Part shown: positions 6,385 through 32,134 of the stretch, piece after piece
How positions within the stretch are numbered: position 1 is the first letter of the stretch
How the letters are laid out: the number at the start of each line of letters is the position of its first letter
Assembly: GCA_029264955.1 (NCBI GenBank)
Contig: JARHYC010000020.1
Coordinates: 124,001 to 188,000 of the forward strand
From: Faecalibacterium sp.
GTDB taxonomy: Bacteria > Bacillota > Clostridia > Oscillospirales > Ruminococcaceae
Length of the DNA: 64,000 nt
Direction: 5' to 3'
Made by a program: the position numbers and the translations under genes
The notes under the pieces: generated by a model
The model's input: only the letters and a program-made list of their open reading frames with translations
Told to the model about the DNA's origin: nothing
Database searches by the model: none

Positions 6385-6418
6385 AATTTACTCTGCTACA
6401 AGTACACGTTCCCAAGAC

Positions 6419-6594
6419 CACGACAGCGCTCCACAGGCCGCAAAGACCCGTGACAGACCAGAGGATATTATCCCAAGATCCGGCAATTTTCTGTCAGGCA
6501 ACAGAAAACACCTCGGCAACGGCCCCTTTCACTTTTCCCGGCTGCCTGCCTTAACTTGGAAAAGCTACTCTTGACGCGTCGCGCCTCTATCATG
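6419..6594 (-). promoter_or_regulatory. Lysine riboswitch (L-box) aptamer
   Basis: Minus-strand CATGATAGAGGCGCGACGCGTCAAGAGTAGC … GAAAGGGGCCGTTGCCGAGG … GGCCTGTGGAGCGCTGTCGTG; P1 pairs CATGATAG/CTGTCGTG. Confidence 0.92.
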
Positions 6595-6854
6595 TAATTT
6601 TTCGATTGGACAAGTCTGATTATAACCACTTCTCCGAGAATGTCAACCTGCTTTGATAAATTTTCTGTTTTTTCTTTTGCAGGCACGGTTTTGATATTTT
6701 TTGCTTTTCAACGCGATTTTTCAAAATCTTTGCTTGCGCACAGCTTTTTTTATGCCTTGCGCAAACAAACGTGAATATCTTCCAGCGGGTCAAAATTCCT
6801 CTTCCACTTGTTGGAATCTGCGTTTTCTCTTCTCGAAAAAGGTTTCAGATAAAA

Positions 6855-6886: not shown

Positions 6887-6962
6887 GGTGCGATGGGAGG
6901 GACTCGAACCCCCGACCTACTGGTTCGTAGCCAGTCACTCTATCCAGCTGAGCTACCAACGC
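6886..6962 (-). tRNA. tRNA-Arg (anticodon ACG), CCA encoded
   Basis: Minus strand GCGTTGGTAGCTCAGCTGGATAGAGTGACTGGCTACGAACCAGTAGGTCGGGGGTTCGAGTCCCTCCCATCGCACCA; cloverleaf with ACTGG-CTACGAA-CCAGT anticodon arm. Confidence 0.93.
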
Positions 6963-15900: not shown

Positions 15901-16266
15901 GCTGCTTTCGCTCCACTTCTTTCTTTTTCAGGGATTACCCCCGCATCCATTTCAGAACATTATTAGTAAGCATACCACATTTTTTCAGAAAGCGAAAGCC
16001 GCCGGGCTGGAGATTATCGCAATCCGCTTTGGCTTTTCTTTCGCCCTTTATATCTCAACCGTCAAACAATGAAATAGCCCCCTGCGCTTGCGGTACGCAG
16101 GGGGCTTAATTGCTTGGGGTATTCGTTTGGTGTGAGGAGGAATCATGTGCAAGGTATCGGTTGCGGCTCCGAACCTTGTGACTTTAGTATACTCACTTTC
16201 CTGTGTGAATTGATGAAGTTGGTGTGAAGATTTTGTAAAAACGGGAAGGAATCTGGCACACAATTT

Positions 16267-24774: not shown

Positions 24775-26403
24775 TTACGACAACATCCCGAACACTGTCA
24801 TTGCGATACGGAAGTACAGCAGCAAGCTGCAAGCATCCACAATAGTCGTAATGAAGGGAGAGGCCATCAGCGCAGGGTCCAGACCAATCTTCTTTGCCAG
24901 CAGCGGCAGTGCACCGCCTACCAGCTTTGCCAGCACAACCGCACAGAAAAGCGATAGGCTAACGGTGATTGCATAGCCGAACACATGTTCATACTGACCC
25001 GCATAGAAAACGCCGTACATCAGCAAAATGCGTGCGCCGTTGACGACACCCAAAATGGCACCAATGATGACAGCGATACGAAGTTCCTTATTCAGAACCT
25101 TCATAATATCGCTGGGGGTCACCTGATCCAGCGCCATACCACGAATCATTAGGGTACTGGTCTGGTTACCACAGTTACCGGCGGTATCCATCAGCATGGG
25201 CATGAAGGAAACCAGCAGCGGCATGGTAACAAACGCTGCTTCGTAATGGGTCGTGACCATACCGGTCACGGTAGCGGACAGCATCAAAATCAACAGCCAA
25301 GGCAAACGCTGTTTTGCCTGCTGCCAGACGGAAGTACCGAAGTAAGTTGCTTCTGCGTCTTCAGTCATAATAGCAGCCATCTTGTGCATATCCTCGGTGG
25401 ATTCCTGGGTCAAAACGTCCACTGCATCGTCGATGGTAACAATACCGACCATCATCCCTTCTGCATCCAGAACCGGCATCGCGGTCAGGTCGTAGCGCTG
25501 CATCTCACGAGCAACATCTTCCTGGTCATCGGTGACACGGACGCAAATCACATTGTCATCCATCAGCTCGGTAATAGGGGTGTCAAACTGGGACAGCAGC
25601 AAATCCTTTGCGGAAACAACACCCAGCAGGCGGTTCTTTTCCACAACATAGCTGGTGTATACCGTTTCGGCGTTCTCGCCCTGCTCACGAATGGCAGCAA
25701 TGGCTTCACGCACCGTCATATTTTCTTTCAGCCGGACATACTCCAGCGTCATGATCGAGCCTGCGCTGCTTTCCGGATAGCGCAGCAGCTTGTTCAGGCT
25801 GTCACGGGTTTCCTTGCTGGATTTTGCCAGCACGCGCTTTACAACAGCTGCGGGCATATCTTCCAGCAGGTCAGCCGCATCGTCCAGGCTCATTTCTTCC
25901 AATGCGCCTACCAGCTCAGTATCCGAGAAGGCTTCTACCAAATCGGTACGGGCTTTATCCGACATATAGGCAAAGGCTTCCGCTGCAACCTCTTTTTTCA
26001 GCAGACGGAAAATTACCAGACGGTTGTTTTCGTCCAGCTCTTCCAACAGCTCTGCCAAGTCAACGGGGTTTTCTTCCTCCGTTGCTTCCCGCAGATCCAG
26101 ATACTGCTTTTTCATCAACAGCTTCAGAATCTGAGACTTTGTCAGACGCTCACGATCATCGGGTTCTTCTTCGTGTTTTTCCTCCCACTCCGCCTGCTGG
26201 ATATCATCGCGGATATCCTCCAAGGTTTCCGCAATGTCTTCTTCCAGCGCTACCTTGATTTCAGGCGCCAGATCCTCAGGCAATTCTTCGGGCGGCAGCT
26301 GGGGTAAATCTGCCTCGTTGGTTTCGGTCGGGGTGGGGATGCGCTCGCGTGCCAGATCTTCAATCTGGTTAATGGTTTCTTTCTTCTGCTTTTCCATGGG
26401 CAA
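24775..26403 (-). CDS. mgtE: Magnesium transporter MgtE
   Basis: MgtE_N repeats, CBS domains (LLGVVSAKDLL…MVGIVTIDDAVDVL), TM domain with LMDTAGNCGNQTSTLMIRG. Confidence 0.95.
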   Translation of the reverse strand: MPMEKQKKETINQIEDLARERIPTPTETNEADLPQLPPEELPEDLAPEIKVALEEDIAETLEDIRDDIQQAEWEEKHEEEPDDRERLTKSQILKLLMKKQYLDLREATEEENPVDLAELLEELDENNRLVIFRLLKKEVAAEAFAYMSDKARTDLVEAFSDTELVGALEEMSLDDAADLLEDMPAAVVKRVLAKSSKETRDSLNKLLRYPESSAGSIMTLEYVRLKENMTVREAIAAIREQGENAETVYTSYVVEKNRLLGVVSAKDLLLSQFDTPITELMDDNVICVRVTDDQEDVAREMQRYDLTAMPVLDAEGMMVGIVTIDDAVDVLTQESTEDMHKMAAIMTEDAEATYFGTSVWQQAKQRLPWLLILMLSATVTGMVTTHYEAAFVTMPLLVSFMPMLMDTAGNCGNQTSTLMIRGMALDQVTPSDIMKVLNKELRIAVIIGAILGVVNGARILLMYGVFYAGQYEHVFGYAITVSLSLFCAVVLAKLVGGALPLLAKKIGLDPALMASPFITTIVDACSLLLYFRIAMTVFGMLS

Positions 26404-26514: not shown

Positions 26515-26607
26515 TTACACTGCGGCTCTCCGGTAAAATAAGGTGTACGCATTCTTGCTGTTTTTCCTGCCAGACACACTGGCTTGCGGACTATGATCAG
26601 GGTCCAT
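26515..26607 (-). CDS. Putative 30-aa leader peptide in mgtE 5'UTR (MDPDHSPQASVSGRKNSKNAYTLFYRRAAV)
   Basis: Complete small ORF with full-length Shine-Dalgarno AGGAGGTGA upstream of ATG; Asp-Pro/acidic N-terminus resembles MgtL (MEPDPTP...). Confidence 0.5.
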   Translation of the reverse strand: MDPDHSPQASVSGRKNSKNAYTLFYRRAAV

Positions 26608-27449: not shown

Positions 27450-27555
27450 GGCATCTCCTTATGTGAACAGCGCATCTACGCCGATTTTTTATCATTTTTT
27501 GCATTGTGTTGCGTACTTTAACGCGGTGTTGAACATCCAGAACTATTCAACAAAA

Positions 27556-27598
27556 AAAGACAGTCCTTTCTTTATTGTAACGGAAAGGACTGCCTTTT
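27556..27598. terminator. Terminator hairpin upstream of the alarmone synthetase gene
   Basis: GACAGTCCTTTC…GAAAGGACTGCC flanked by A7/T5. Confidence 0.8.
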
Positions 27599-27612: not shown

Positions 27613-27654
27613 AAAAAAACACCTCCCGATTGCCCGTTGCAGCAAAAGGGAGGC
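27613..27654 (-). terminator. Intrinsic terminator ending the structured region downstream of PFOR
   Basis: Minus strand GCCTCCC…GGGAGGTGTTTTTTT. Confidence 0.8.
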
Positions 27655-27655
27655 T

Positions 27656-28034
27656 AAAAACGATATTCGTTTTTTCCGTCGGCAAGATTTCCGTAAAAGC
27701 GGATCTTATGCAGACGTTGAAGCAAGGTATCCGCACACGGACCTTATGCTTCTGGTACGAGCTTGTCGTACTCTCAAGGGCCCTCACGGGCGCTTTTGGT
27801 ATTTTATGCGCTCAGCCTGCCGGGATGAACCAGAATCCTTCGTGCTGCTCTCTCCGCGCGATCAGAACAGAGCTGCGATTGGATTTCGTTTTATTACCGA
27901 GGTATCACGCGTAAAATCATAGTTTGACGGTTCGCTCCGCGCGATCAGAATCGAACTGTCATTTTATGCGGCAGGGGGATACAGCGTACCCAGCGAATCC
28001 GCGCGATCAGAACCAACTGGGTTTGCTGTATCAA
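27656..28034 (-). ncRNA. Candidate large structured RNA: at least seven consecutive hairpins, three with identical 15-nt loop (minus strand TTCTGATCGCGCGGA). Strand inferred from terminator and flanking gene orientation
   Basis: Loop copies at 27853-27867, 27936-27950, 27998-28012, each enclosed by unrelated complementary stems (e.g. GACGGTTCG/CGAACTGTC; GATACAGC..ACCCAG/CTGGGT..GCTGTATC). Confidence 0.6.
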
Positions 28035-28060
28035 CTGCACACCTTTTGTCCTAAGACAAA

Positions 28061-31000
28061 TTACTTATACAGGTCAACCAGACGAGTCAGGTGCTCGTAG
28101 CGTGCCTCAGCAGCCTTCTGGTTACGATCGAACAGTTCCTGTGCACGATCGGGGAAGGCACGGCTCAGACGGCTGTAACGAGTCTCCGTTGCCAGGAAGT
28201 CCTGGTACTTGTCGTAGCTGCCGGGCTTGCTGGTCAGGGTGAACGGATTCTTGCCCTGTGCCTTCAGTGCCGGGTTGAAGGTGAACAGGTTCCAGTAACC
28301 AGCCTCAACTGCCTTCTTCATCTCGTTCTGGCAGTTGGTCATGCCGCCCTTAATACCATGCAGCTCGCAAGGTGCATAGCCGATGATCAGGGACGGGCCG
28401 GGGTAAGCCTCAGCCTCTGCGATAGCCTTGACAGCCTGGGTCATGTTAGCGCCCAGAGCGATCTGTGCAACGTAGATATAGCCGTAGGTCATGCAGATCT
28501 CAGACAGGCTCTTCTTGCTGATTTCCTTACCAGCAGCAGCGAACTGGCAAACCTCACCGATATTGGAAGCCTTGGAAGCCTGTCCGCCGGTGTTGGAGTA
28601 CATCTCGGTATCGAAGACCATCACGTTGACGTCCTCACCGGAAGCCAGAACGTGGTCCAGACCGCCGTAACCGATGTCGTATGCCCAGCCGTCACCGCCG
28701 AAGATCCAGACGGACTTCTTGGAGATGTACTGCTTCTCAGTCAGGATTTCCTTAGCCAGAGCATTGCCGGAAGCTGCCAGCTTCTCCAGCTCAGCAGTGA
28801 TTGCCTTTGCGGGCTCATCATTTGCCTTGGTGTTGTTCTTGGTAGCGATGTACTGCTCATATGCTTCCTTGTAGGATGCAGGAGCAGTTTCATCAGCTGC
28901 GATCTCTGCCATACGCTTAATCAGATTCTCGCGGATGGTCTTCTGGCCCAGGTACATACCCAGACCGTGCTGTGCGTTATCCTCGAACAGGGAGTTGCAC
29001 CATGCGGGACCGTGACCGGAATCCTTGTTGACAGTGTAGGGAGAGATTGCTGCGGTACCGCCCCAGATGGAGGAGCAGCCGGTAGCGTTGGAAATGTACA
29101 TCTTCTCACCAAACAGCTGAGTGATCAGACGTGCATAGCTGGTCTCGGCACAGCCGGCGCAGGAGCCAGAGAACTCCAGCAGGGGCTGGTTGAACTGAGA
29201 ACCGATAACCGTGTCATCCGCAAAGCGGGTAGGCTTCTTGGAGATGTTGGCAACGCAGTAGTCGAAGACTTCCTGCTGATCTGCCTGGCTCTCCTGCGGC
29301 TGCATGGTGATAGCCTTGGTGGGGCAAACGGTAACACACTCGCCACAGCCCATGCAGTCCAGCGGAGAAACAGCCATAACGAACTTGTAGTCGTTAGCAG
29401 GCTTGTTGTCGCGGCAGGTGATCTGCTTGGGTGCGTTTGCCAGCTCCTCAGCGGTCAGCTGGAAGGGACGGATGGTAGCGTGAGAGCAAACAAAAGCACA
29501 CTGGTTACAGCCAACACACTTCTCTGCTTCCCAAGCGGGAACGGTAACAGCGATACCACGCTTTTCATAAGCGGATGCGCCCTGCTCCCACTCGCCGTCG
29601 GGGTTCTTGCTGAATGCAGAAACCGGCAGGCTGTCGCCGTCCATGCGAGCGATAGGCTCGGTAACCTCGCGAATCTGCTTGACCAGTTCGGGTGCGCCCT
29701 GCAGCTCTGCGGGTGCAGGATCAGCAGCCGGGTTGGACCAATCTGCGGGGATTTCTACCTTGTGGATCGCTTCCAGACCAGCGTCGATAGCCTTCCAGTT
29801 CATCTCGACAACTTCCTGGCCCTTCTTGCCGTAGGACTTCTCAGCTGCCTTCTTCATGAAGGTAACAGCGTCGTCGATGGGCATGACGTCAGCCAGCTTG
29901 AAGAATGCGGACTGCAGGATGGTATTGGTGCGCTTGCCCATACCAATCTCGATTGCCTTGTCGATAGCATTGATGGTGTACAGCTGAATGTTGTTGTCAG
30001 CAATGTACTTCTTAGCAGCAGCGTTCAGGTGCTGGCTCAGCTCTTCATCTGTCCACTGGCAGTTTACCATAAAGATACCGCCGGGCTTAACGTCCTGCAC
30101 CATCTTGATGCCCTGGTTGATGTAAGAAGGAGTATGGCAAGCAACAAAGTCAGCCTGGTTGATGTAGTAGGGGCTGTGGATCGGGTTGTCACCGAAACGC
30201 AGGTGGCTGATGGTTACGCCGCCGGTCTTCTTGGAGTCATACTGGAAGTATGCCTGAACATACTTATCCGTGTGGTCACCGATGATCTTAACGGAGTTCT
30301 TGTTTGCGCCAACGGTGCCGTCGCCGCCCAGACCCCAGAACTTGCACTCCTTGGTGCCCTTTGCTGCGGTGATGGGTGCGGGCTTGACCTCAGGCAGGGA
30401 CAGGAAAGTCACGTCATCAGTGATGCCCAGGGTGAAACGTGCCTTAGGCTCGTCCTTAGCCAGCTCAGCAAACAGAGCGAAGATAGAGGACGGGGGCGTA
30501 TCCTTGCTGCCCAGACCATAACGGCCGCCGGTCAGAACGATGTCGTTCAGGCCAGCCTCACGCAGGGTAGCAGCAACATCCAGGTACAGGGGCTCGCCCA
30601 GAGAGCCAGGCTCCTTGGTGCGATCCAGCACTGCAACCTTCTTAGCGGTAGCAGGCAGAACCTTCAGCAGGTGCTTTGCAGACCAGGGACGGAACAGGCG
30701 AACCTTGATCAGGCCGACCTTCTCACCCTTTGCCACCAAGTAATCGATGACTTCCTCTGCCACATCGCAGATAGAACCCATAGCGATGATGACACGCTCT
30801 GCGTCAGGTGCACCGTGGTAGTTGAACAGATCGTAGTTGGTACCCAGCTTCTCGTTGACCTTGCCCATGTACTTTTCGACAACTGCGGGCAGAGCATTGT
30901 AAGCGGAGTTGCAAGCCTCACGATGCTGGAAGAAAACGTCGCCGTTTTCGTGAGAACCACGCATCTTGGGGTGCTCGGGGTTCAGTGCCTTGTTACGGAA

Positions 31001-31606
31001 GTCCTCAACGGCCTCCATGTTGCACATTTCTTTCAGATCCGCGTAATCCCACTTTTCGATCTTCTGGTATTCGTGAGAAGTACGGAAACCATCGAAGAAG
31101 TTAACAAAGGGTACACGGCCTTCGATTGCTGCCAGGTGAGCAACAGGGGACAGGTCCATGACTTCCTGCACGGAACCTTCAGCCAGCATTGCGAAGCCGG
31201 TCTGACGGACAGCCATAACGTCGCTGTGGTCACCGAAGATGTTCAGGGACTGAGTAGCAACGGTACGTGCAGAAACGTGGAAAACGCTGGGCAGCATTTC
31301 GCCGGCAATCTTGTACATGTTGGGGATCATCAGCAGCAGGCCCTGAGATGCGGTAAAGGTAGTGGTGATAGCACCAGCACCCAGAGAGCCGTGAACGGCA
31401 CCTGCAGCACCGCCCTCAGACTCCATCTCAACAACCTTAACCTGGTTGCCGAAGATGTTCTTCTGGCCGGCAGCAGACCACTGATCACAGAAGTCTGCCA
31501 TAGGAGAAGACGGGGTAATGGGATAGATGGCAGCTACGTCGGTAAAGGCGTATGCTACATGAGCAGCAGCGGTATTGCCATCCATGGTTTGCTTTGCTCT
31601 AGGCAT
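28061..31606 (-). CDS. nifJ: Pyruvate:ferredoxin (flavodoxin) oxidoreductase
   Basis: MPRAKQTMDGNTAAAHVAYAFTDVAAIYPITPSSPMAD; two [4Fe-4S] motifs; TPP-binding region GGDGWAYDIGYGGLDHVLASGEDVNVMVFDTEMYSNTGGQ. Confidence 0.97.
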   Translation of the reverse strand: MPRAKQTMDGNTAAAHVAYAFTDVAAIYPITPSSPMADFCDQWSAAGQKNIFGNQVKVVEMESEGGAAGAVHGSLGAGAITTTFTASQGLLLMIPNMYKIAGEMLPSVFHVSARTVATQSLNIFGDHSDVMAVRQTGFAMLAEGSVQEVMDLSPVAHLAAIEGRVPFVNFFDGFRTSHEYQKIEKWDYADLKEMCNMEAVEDFRNKALNPEHPKMRGSHENGDVFFQHREACNSAYNALPAVVEKYMGKVNEKLGTNYDLFNYHGAPDAERVIIAMGSICDVAEEVIDYLVAKGEKVGLIKVRLFRPWSAKHLLKVLPATAKKVAVLDRTKEPGSLGEPLYLDVAATLREAGLNDIVLTGGRYGLGSKDTPPSSIFALFAELAKDEPKARFTLGITDDVTFLSLPEVKPAPITAAKGTKECKFWGLGGDGTVGANKNSVKIIGDHTDKYVQAYFQYDSKKTGGVTISHLRFGDNPIHSPYYINQADFVACHTPSYINQGIKMVQDVKPGGIFMVNCQWTDEELSQHLNAAAKKYIADNNIQLYTINAIDKAIEIGMGKRTNTILQSAFFKLADVMPIDDAVTFMKKAAEKSYGKKGQEVVEMNWKAIDAGLEAIHKVEIPADWSNPAADPAPAELQGAPELVKQIREVTEPIARMDGDSLPVSAFSKNPDGEWEQGASAYEKRGIAVTVPAWEAEKCVGCNQCAFVCSHATIRPFQLTAEELANAPKQITCRDNKPANDYKFVMAVSPLDCMGCGECVTVCPTKAITMQPQESQADQQEVFDYCVANISKKPTRFADDTVIGSQFNQPLLEFSGSCAGCAETSYARLITQLFGEKMYISNATGCSSIWGGTAAISPYTVNKDSGHGPAWCNSLFEDNAQHGLGMYLGQKTIRENLIKRMAEIAADETAPASYKEAYEQYIATKNNTKANDEPAKAITAELEKLAASGNALAKEILTEKQYISKKSVWIFGGDGWAYDIGYGGLDHVLASGEDVNVMVFDTEMYSNTGGQASKASNIGEVCQFAAAGKEISKKSLSEICMTYGYIYVAQIALGANMTQAVKAIAEAEAYPGPSLIIGYAPCELHGIKGGMTNCQNEMKKAVEAGYWNLFTFNPALKAQGKNPFTLTSKPGSYDKYQDFLATETRYSRLSRAFPDRAQELFDRNQKAAEARYEHLTRLVDLYK

Positions 31607-32134
31607 TGTTCTTCCTCCATTTAGATTTTTATTTTTTAATATAGTCATGCCTTCTGGGGGAGTTCCCCCGGGAGCCTCCCCCCTGAAAGGCCCCATTTTC
31701 CCTAAAAAATGGCGCACTTTCAGTAAAGGCACTTTGGCTTATACCTATTCTAACAAAATGTAGTGCGCTTGTAAACGTGCCGTATTCGGAAAAAAGTGAC
31801 AAGATTTGATAATTAAACCAGACAATCTGTACAAATCCACAAAAGAATAATTGTATCTTTTTTACACACCACACCTTTTTGAGCAATTTGTATAGTTTTG
31901 ATTATTTTTTTCGTCATTACGCACATTTTAAGAAAATACAGAACATTCCATATTTCTTTTTCATTCTTTTTTTCATCTTTTGAAAAGAAGAAAAAAAGAA
32001 GTATATTCGTTCTTTTTTCTTTTTCCGCGTCTTTTTTCCAAATTTTCTACAACGGAAATCCTTTTCAGGCTTTTTTCGCAGTGATATGACCAAGATGTTT
32101 AGATTGATTTTTGAAATCTTGTCATTTTCGTCAA

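Follow-up and report, generated by a model that had tools for sequence, protein, structure and literature searches.

A conserved structured RNA downstream of nifJ in Faecalibacterium with a lineage-specific 5' part

OLE, ROOL, GOLLD and raiA are ornate large or oligomerising bacterial RNAs with many hairpins, and REPs are dispersed elements in which the stem is conserved. In Faecalibacterium, a genus that ranks with the most abundant and health-associated bacteria of the gut, nifJ (PFOR) encodes a central enzyme of fermentation, and this gene is followed by a series of hairpins in the window, as the whole analysed stretch of 64,000 nucleotides from a Faecalibacterium sp. contig is called here. 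How does this element compare with the described systems? It resembles OLE, ROOL, GOLLD and raiA in its many hairpins and possible loop-loop contacts but differs from them in having no Rfam match, and it resembles REP/BIME sequences in consisting of intergenic hairpins with shared sequence but differs in being confined to a single locus and in keeping its tips constant while the stems vary. Closer are the bacterial regulatory 3'UTRs and 3'UTR-derived sRNAs reviewed in PMC5502269, which like the element are structured, non-coding and placed between the stop codon of a metabolic gene and its intrinsic terminator. From a typical 3'UTR sRNA the element is set apart by its restriction to one genus. 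It also shows far stronger structure and covariation than is usual for such RNAs. Candidate structured RNA motifs, as presented in the main texts of two surveys (PMC8040213; PMC8632094), are similarly intergenic, covarying, narrow in range and without an assigned function. The main text of PMC8632094 mentions neither Faecalibacterium nor nifJ, and that of PMC8040213 mentions neither F. prausnitzii, Ruminococcaceae nor an oxidoreductase; either survey may contain the locus as an unnamed entry. Rfam 15 gave no relevant match to the element, by gathering score or E-value, over the window, the hairpin interval and 11 related loci, the best score being mir-515 with 25.7 bits against a gathering cut-off of 68, located on the second terminator. 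This agrees with the original prediction, made from the sequence of the window, that no known RNA class is present. The element is accordingly filed as a new RNA family within structured bacterial 3'UTR RNAs, the literature compared being the main texts of the two surveys. At gathering level only two Rfam matches occur in the window, a lysine riboswitch (97 bits) at 6416-6597 and a tRNA gene at 6889-6962 (minus strand).

The nifJ gene, coding for pyruvate:ferredoxin oxidoreductase (28061-31732, minus strand; Pfam domains POR_N, POR, EKR and PFOR_II) and the presumed host transcript of the element, ends with a stop codon at 28061-28063, and the hairpin block lies 3' of this stop. On the same minus strand, to which all following coordinates of the element refer, fold energy and conservation in the genus delimit a structured RNA spanning the whole nifJ 3'UTR (27613-28060), made up of a lineage-specific 5' part, a core and a terminator; a 501-nt region folds 6.8 standard deviations below shuffled sequence (z -6.8). 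The conserved core (27677-27811) comprises helices P1 to P5 and is followed by one hairpin and the intrinsic terminator. P1 is formed by a 5' strand GAUUUUACGCG (27908-27918), recognized from the fold and from homologous P1 helices in relatives, and a 3' strand GCGCAUAAAAU (27801-27811; alignment and fold), after which comes an invariant AUACC. The covarying helices P2 (27776-27796), capped by a GNRA tetraloop that reads GUGA in the window and GCGA in most relatives, and P3 (27755-27771) precede P4 (27719-27752), in which alignment and covariation reveal a near-invariant double-bulge motif, GC-[AU]-AAGG ... [UA]-CCUU-GC. A second copy of this motif, GC-[AU]-AAGA ... [NA]-UCUU-GC, is found in the covarying helix P5 (27677-27716). 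By sequence, an A/U-rich hairpin P6, AAAAACGA/UCGUUUUU, occupies 27656-27674. The terminator itself, CCUCCC...GGGAGG followed by U7 (27613-27653), was found by folding, having been missed by a terminator scan that allowed loops of 3-8 nt only. About 17 nt past it, sequence and fold indicate a second terminator-like hairpin, again followed by U7 (27552-27596), located before a gene for a RelA/SpoT-domain protein. In addition, an extra GCAUAAAAU segment at 27961-27969 equals the P1 3' strand in sequence, and it could be imagined that either copy of GCAUAAAAU pairs with AUUUUACGC in the 5' strand of P1, which would provide an alternative to P1 and a bistable structure.

Do these hairpins represent a selected RNA structure? 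The core alignment contains 18 distinct sequences and takes in P2, P3, P4, P5 and the 3' strand of P1. In this alignment 99.1% of the cells of the proposed structure are paired, and 17 pairs have changed on both sides, as compared to 4.7 ± 1.5 in column shuffles. When the partners are slid by 1-3 columns pairing falls to 30-49%, a control that is weaker than the shuffle control since the aligned sequences had partly served to derive the structure; in compensatory base-pair changes the core exceeds both. Moreover, with 37 G-U cells against 4 A-C cells, the RNA can be assigned to the nifJ strand. No reading frame of the core stays open across all sampled relatives, each being interrupted by a stop in one or more of them, indicating that there is no conserved coding frame. 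A chance collection of hairpins is ruled out by covariation and synteny, and that a conserved RNA exists at this locus is close to certain. The covariation check on regions downstream of nifJ, proposed together with the original prediction, thus strongly supports the core. Selection on RNA structure, which the prediction had claimed, is borne out by covariation and strand polarity, but the signal resides in hairpins that had been treated as secondary, while the triple tips at the centre of the claim occur in a single genome. These secondary hairpins (27719-27752, 27684-27707, 27755-27771 and 27776-27795) are real and kept in relatives, where they correspond to P4, P5, P3 and P2, respectively; the first of them had been thought to carry a loop related to the repeated 15-mer discussed below, but as helix P4 of a genus-wide RNA it is no relative of that sequence. 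The terminator said to end the block is present as well, just beyond the predicted interval of 27656-28034.

Among 31 Faecalibacterium genomes, conservation after nifJ is limited to the 3' half of the block (approximately 27653-27805) and does not extend to the triple-tip part. Searched with a covariance model of the core, 19 of the 31 give a single strong site each, every site directly 3' of nifJ. With strict filters, under which weak matches may be lost, no credible site was detected outside the genus in 398 genomes of the family and 394 of the order, nor was the core found downstream of nifJ in 23 sister and outgroup genomes. Several matches to the core model outside the genus were set aside: those in L067, L175/L176 and the related G138 represent a common stretch, which in L067 lies antisense to a peptidyl-prolyl isomerase gene, and the one in L068 is a partial match to a GC-rich stretch; a partial match also occurs in G560, outside the genus. 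A search of 85,462 species genomes with the P4 pattern returned 12 Faecalibacterium matches and two others (L072 and L073), both of them chance matches in apparently coding sequence. One apparent phage match (L140, MT836144.1), filed as 'Bacteriophage sp.', proved to be a mislabelled chromosomal contig of F. prausnitzii; it contains the end of nifJ, mgtE and other housekeeping-type genes, and over its first 3 kb it shares 99% identity with G007. In a nifJ tree, the window sequence clusters with G018 and G019, and its lineage is a deep-branching Faecalibacterium. Presence and absence of the element take three label changes on this tree, in which deep branches are weakly supported and one of the changes depends on L055 (G018), whose contig stops short of the element. 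From this pattern the element is probably ancestral and was lost in one clade of seven genomes and in G009. Loss in a whole clade implies that its members can do without the RNA.

The sequence after the element differs between species. The window has the RelA/SpoT-domain gene here, on the nifJ strand, and other species have opposite-strand genes, mgtE or further unrelated frames (identities by eye from reading frames). Since the downstream sequence varies in identity and orientation and nifJ is constant, the element is part of the nifJ 3'UTR, one of the possibilities named with the original prediction, and its position between the stop codon and the terminator of the mRNA, on the nifJ strand, agrees with this. 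It would be very improbable, then, that the element is a riboswitch-like leader that regulates a downstream gene in cis, as might be supposed from its compact aptamer-like core with an intrinsic terminator immediately after it and from the RelA/SpoT-like gene and mgtE located downstream in the window. The constant neighbor is the upstream nifJ, no constant same-strand gene was found downstream, and in L041 and L047, which do not carry the element, mgtE is preceded by a promoter-like sequence of its own and a leader ORF.

Is the RNA transcribed together with nifJ? The dedicated terminator and the self-contained core would also fit a separate small RNA gene that has a promoter of its own and merely happens to be sited after nifJ. 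In the window, however, no promoter-like site was found on the nifJ strand between the nifJ stop codon and the terminator (scan of 28300-27620), and the distance from the stop codon to P1 is as short as approximately 10-25 nt in L035 and L044, a spacing compatible with a promoter inside nifJ. A promoter hidden in the 3' end of nifJ would be expected to conserve synonymous sites, and no extra conservation of such sites is seen near this end. An independent gene is for these reasons unlikely, and because of the missing promoter-like site and the short spacers, transcription probably continues from nifJ into the element and ends at the terminator at 27613-27653.

An intergenic unit that resembles a small RNA is located elsewhere in the window, at 16085-16225 (minus strand), and consists of a TATACT -10-like box, a hairpin, an exposed anti-Shine-Dalgarno sequence AUUCCUCCUCA and a terminator. 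It is present in 30 of the 31 Faecalibacterium genomes, usually in two copies, and in prausnitzii-type genomes one of these directly follows the nifJ element; in Rfam it remains below the gathering score, with a weak similarity to ar14 (E 0.04). A kinship between P4 and this unit (AAGG...GAUACCUUG) was considered and rejected, as by eye that stem varies between the copies and the CCUCCUC part is constant. Another observation concerns mgtE (24775-26403), upstream of which, at about 26540-26607 (minus strand), a short leader ORF MDPDHSPQASVSG... with a strong ribosome-binding site is found. The ORF is kept as MDPDHS in the relatives L041, L047 and L140. E. coli MgtL starts with MEPDP..., and the resemblance of the leader peptide to this acidic and proline-containing start suggests, by analogy, that mgtE may be controlled by Mg2+-dependent ribosome destabilisation.

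Which property of the core could be relevant for its function? The motif common to P4 and P5, 5'-GC-[AU]-AAGR ... [NA]-YCUU-GC-3', is a helix of four pairs with a two-base bulge flanking each strand. In P4 all four pairs and both bulges are invariant among the 18 distinct sequences while the surrounding stems covary, and over both helices the bulges and the AAGG/CCUU pairs are near-invariant amid covarying neighbor stems. Islands of this kind are usually signs of recognition sites or of tertiary contacts, and either may apply here. The main rival explanation is that stacked hairpins act as a stabilizer of the mRNA end, blocking 3'-5' exonucleases and protecting the abundant nifJ message with no specific partner. 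The position of the element directly before an intrinsic terminator and the many stable hairpins, of which the added ones differ by lineage, are consistent with such a role, but a plain barrier needs no near-invariant sequence, and the P4/P5 bulges, the AUACC and the GNRA loop are conserved. Furthermore, in species that do not carry the element, nifJ is followed by a simple terminator. We regard a pure stabilizer as a doubtful possibility.

The part between nifJ and the core is lineage-specific. It measures 10-25 nt in L035 and L044, is a hairpin region of 70-80 nt in L037 and L057, and forms a branched domain of approximately 200 nt in 14 prausnitzii-type genomes. In this clade the branched domain together with P1 covaries, with 53 double-change cells versus 18.2 in shuffled alignments. 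The clade-specific domain, GCGGCACC...GGCGGUUACUGCGCAACGCAGC..., extends for about 200 nt after nifJ in L048, L036, L040 and 11 other loci, has no match in Rfam, and takes the place of the triple-tip hairpins of the window. In the window, hairpins B (27978-28032) and A (27926-27960) are situated upstream of P1, and hairpin C (27830-27885), with the outer pairing AAUCC/GGAUU, is inserted within P1. Folding and a search with the 15-mer TTCTGATCGCGCGGA show that the three carry it as tip, B as UUCUGAUCGCGCGGA at 27998-28012, A at 27936-27950 and C at 27853-27867, without a mismatch, confirming the prediction of three identical copies on three different stems at these positions. Allowing up to two mismatches the window contains no fourth match, and three matches were reached in none of 100 shuffles; the three identical tips are non-random. 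Equal or better folding of the stems under the three copies occurred in 0, 4 and 29 of 1000 flank shuffles. Because different stems carry identical tips, the array cannot have arisen simply by recent duplication of entire hairpins, and selection for the tip would be the simplest reading, for hairpins that one genome carries. Relatives that were searched do not have the triple-tip hairpins, and 34 matches to the 15-mer at one mismatch in 150 relatives, 31 of them outside the nifJ locus, include no array; by our estimate chance would give about 0.2 matches per genome, with which the 31 matches at other sites roughly agree. Paired 15-mers were not found in the viral contigs searched. Judging from these comparisons, the triple-tip array is the window lineage's version of an often elaborated region.

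In the whole genome (1.88 Mb) only the three sites 3' of nifJ match the 15-mer with up to one mismatch, the next best site being two mismatches away. Intergenic hairpins with a repeated 15-mer had also been considered as a possible dispersed repeat; confinement of all three copies to one locus, with chance excluded by covariation and synteny, makes a REP/BIME- or MITE-like repeat or a fortuitous set of hairpins as good as excluded. In the predicted folds the 15-mer is not the loop of 15 nt that it had been taken for: UCUG and CGGA are paired within it, so that the tip is a mini-stem of 4-5 bp closed by the hexaloop AUCGCG, its only open part. In each unit of the window the constant tip is thus set on a variable lower stem, with an unpaired base or mismatch between the two. 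The loop had further been described as self-complementary through CGCGCG, and of this palindrome CGCG is free, but not the full six bases unless the mini-stem opens. Palindromic tips could pair within or between molecules to form a kissing-loop multimer, or could capture complementary RNA as a sponge. CGCG is unpaired in all three tips in folding and a CGCGCG self-duplex is computed at about -9.9 kcal/mol, but the open palindrome has four bases only, no relative has the tips, and no complementary 15-mer exists elsewhere in the genome with up to one mismatch. A kissing-loop multimer or a sponge appears quite improbable.

Beyond the observed structure, strand, conservation and restriction to the nifJ 3' end, we propose that the core acts post-transcriptionally as a compact fold to which a cellular partner binds, the likeliest candidate being an RNA-binding protein that contacts the P4/P5 motifs. 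The core would do so either within the nifJ message or in the form of a stable RNA that remains after decay of the message. We consider the chances about even that the element is a partner-binding structured module of the nifJ 3'UTR in one of these two forms; in function it is probably a protein-binding or a processed regulatory 3'-end RNA. Lineages would have added their own recognition hairpins upstream of P1, and in the window species three hairpins with one tip (bulge plus UCUG-AUCGCG-CGGA) may offer a trivalent binding surface. Going further, the element could be the founding member of a modular class of 3'UTR RNAs in which each lineage grafts a recognition domain of its own onto a conserved scaffold that ends the mRNA of a central metabolic enzyme, the domain here being a trivalent display of identical tips that would bind a protein or self-assemble through kissing loops; this we consider fairly unlikely. 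Studies of post-transcriptional control could readily turn to this covarying RNA, which most of the genus carries at the 3' end of the nifJ mRNA, and its lineage-swapped 5' domains provide a natural series on how new RNA modules join an old scaffold.
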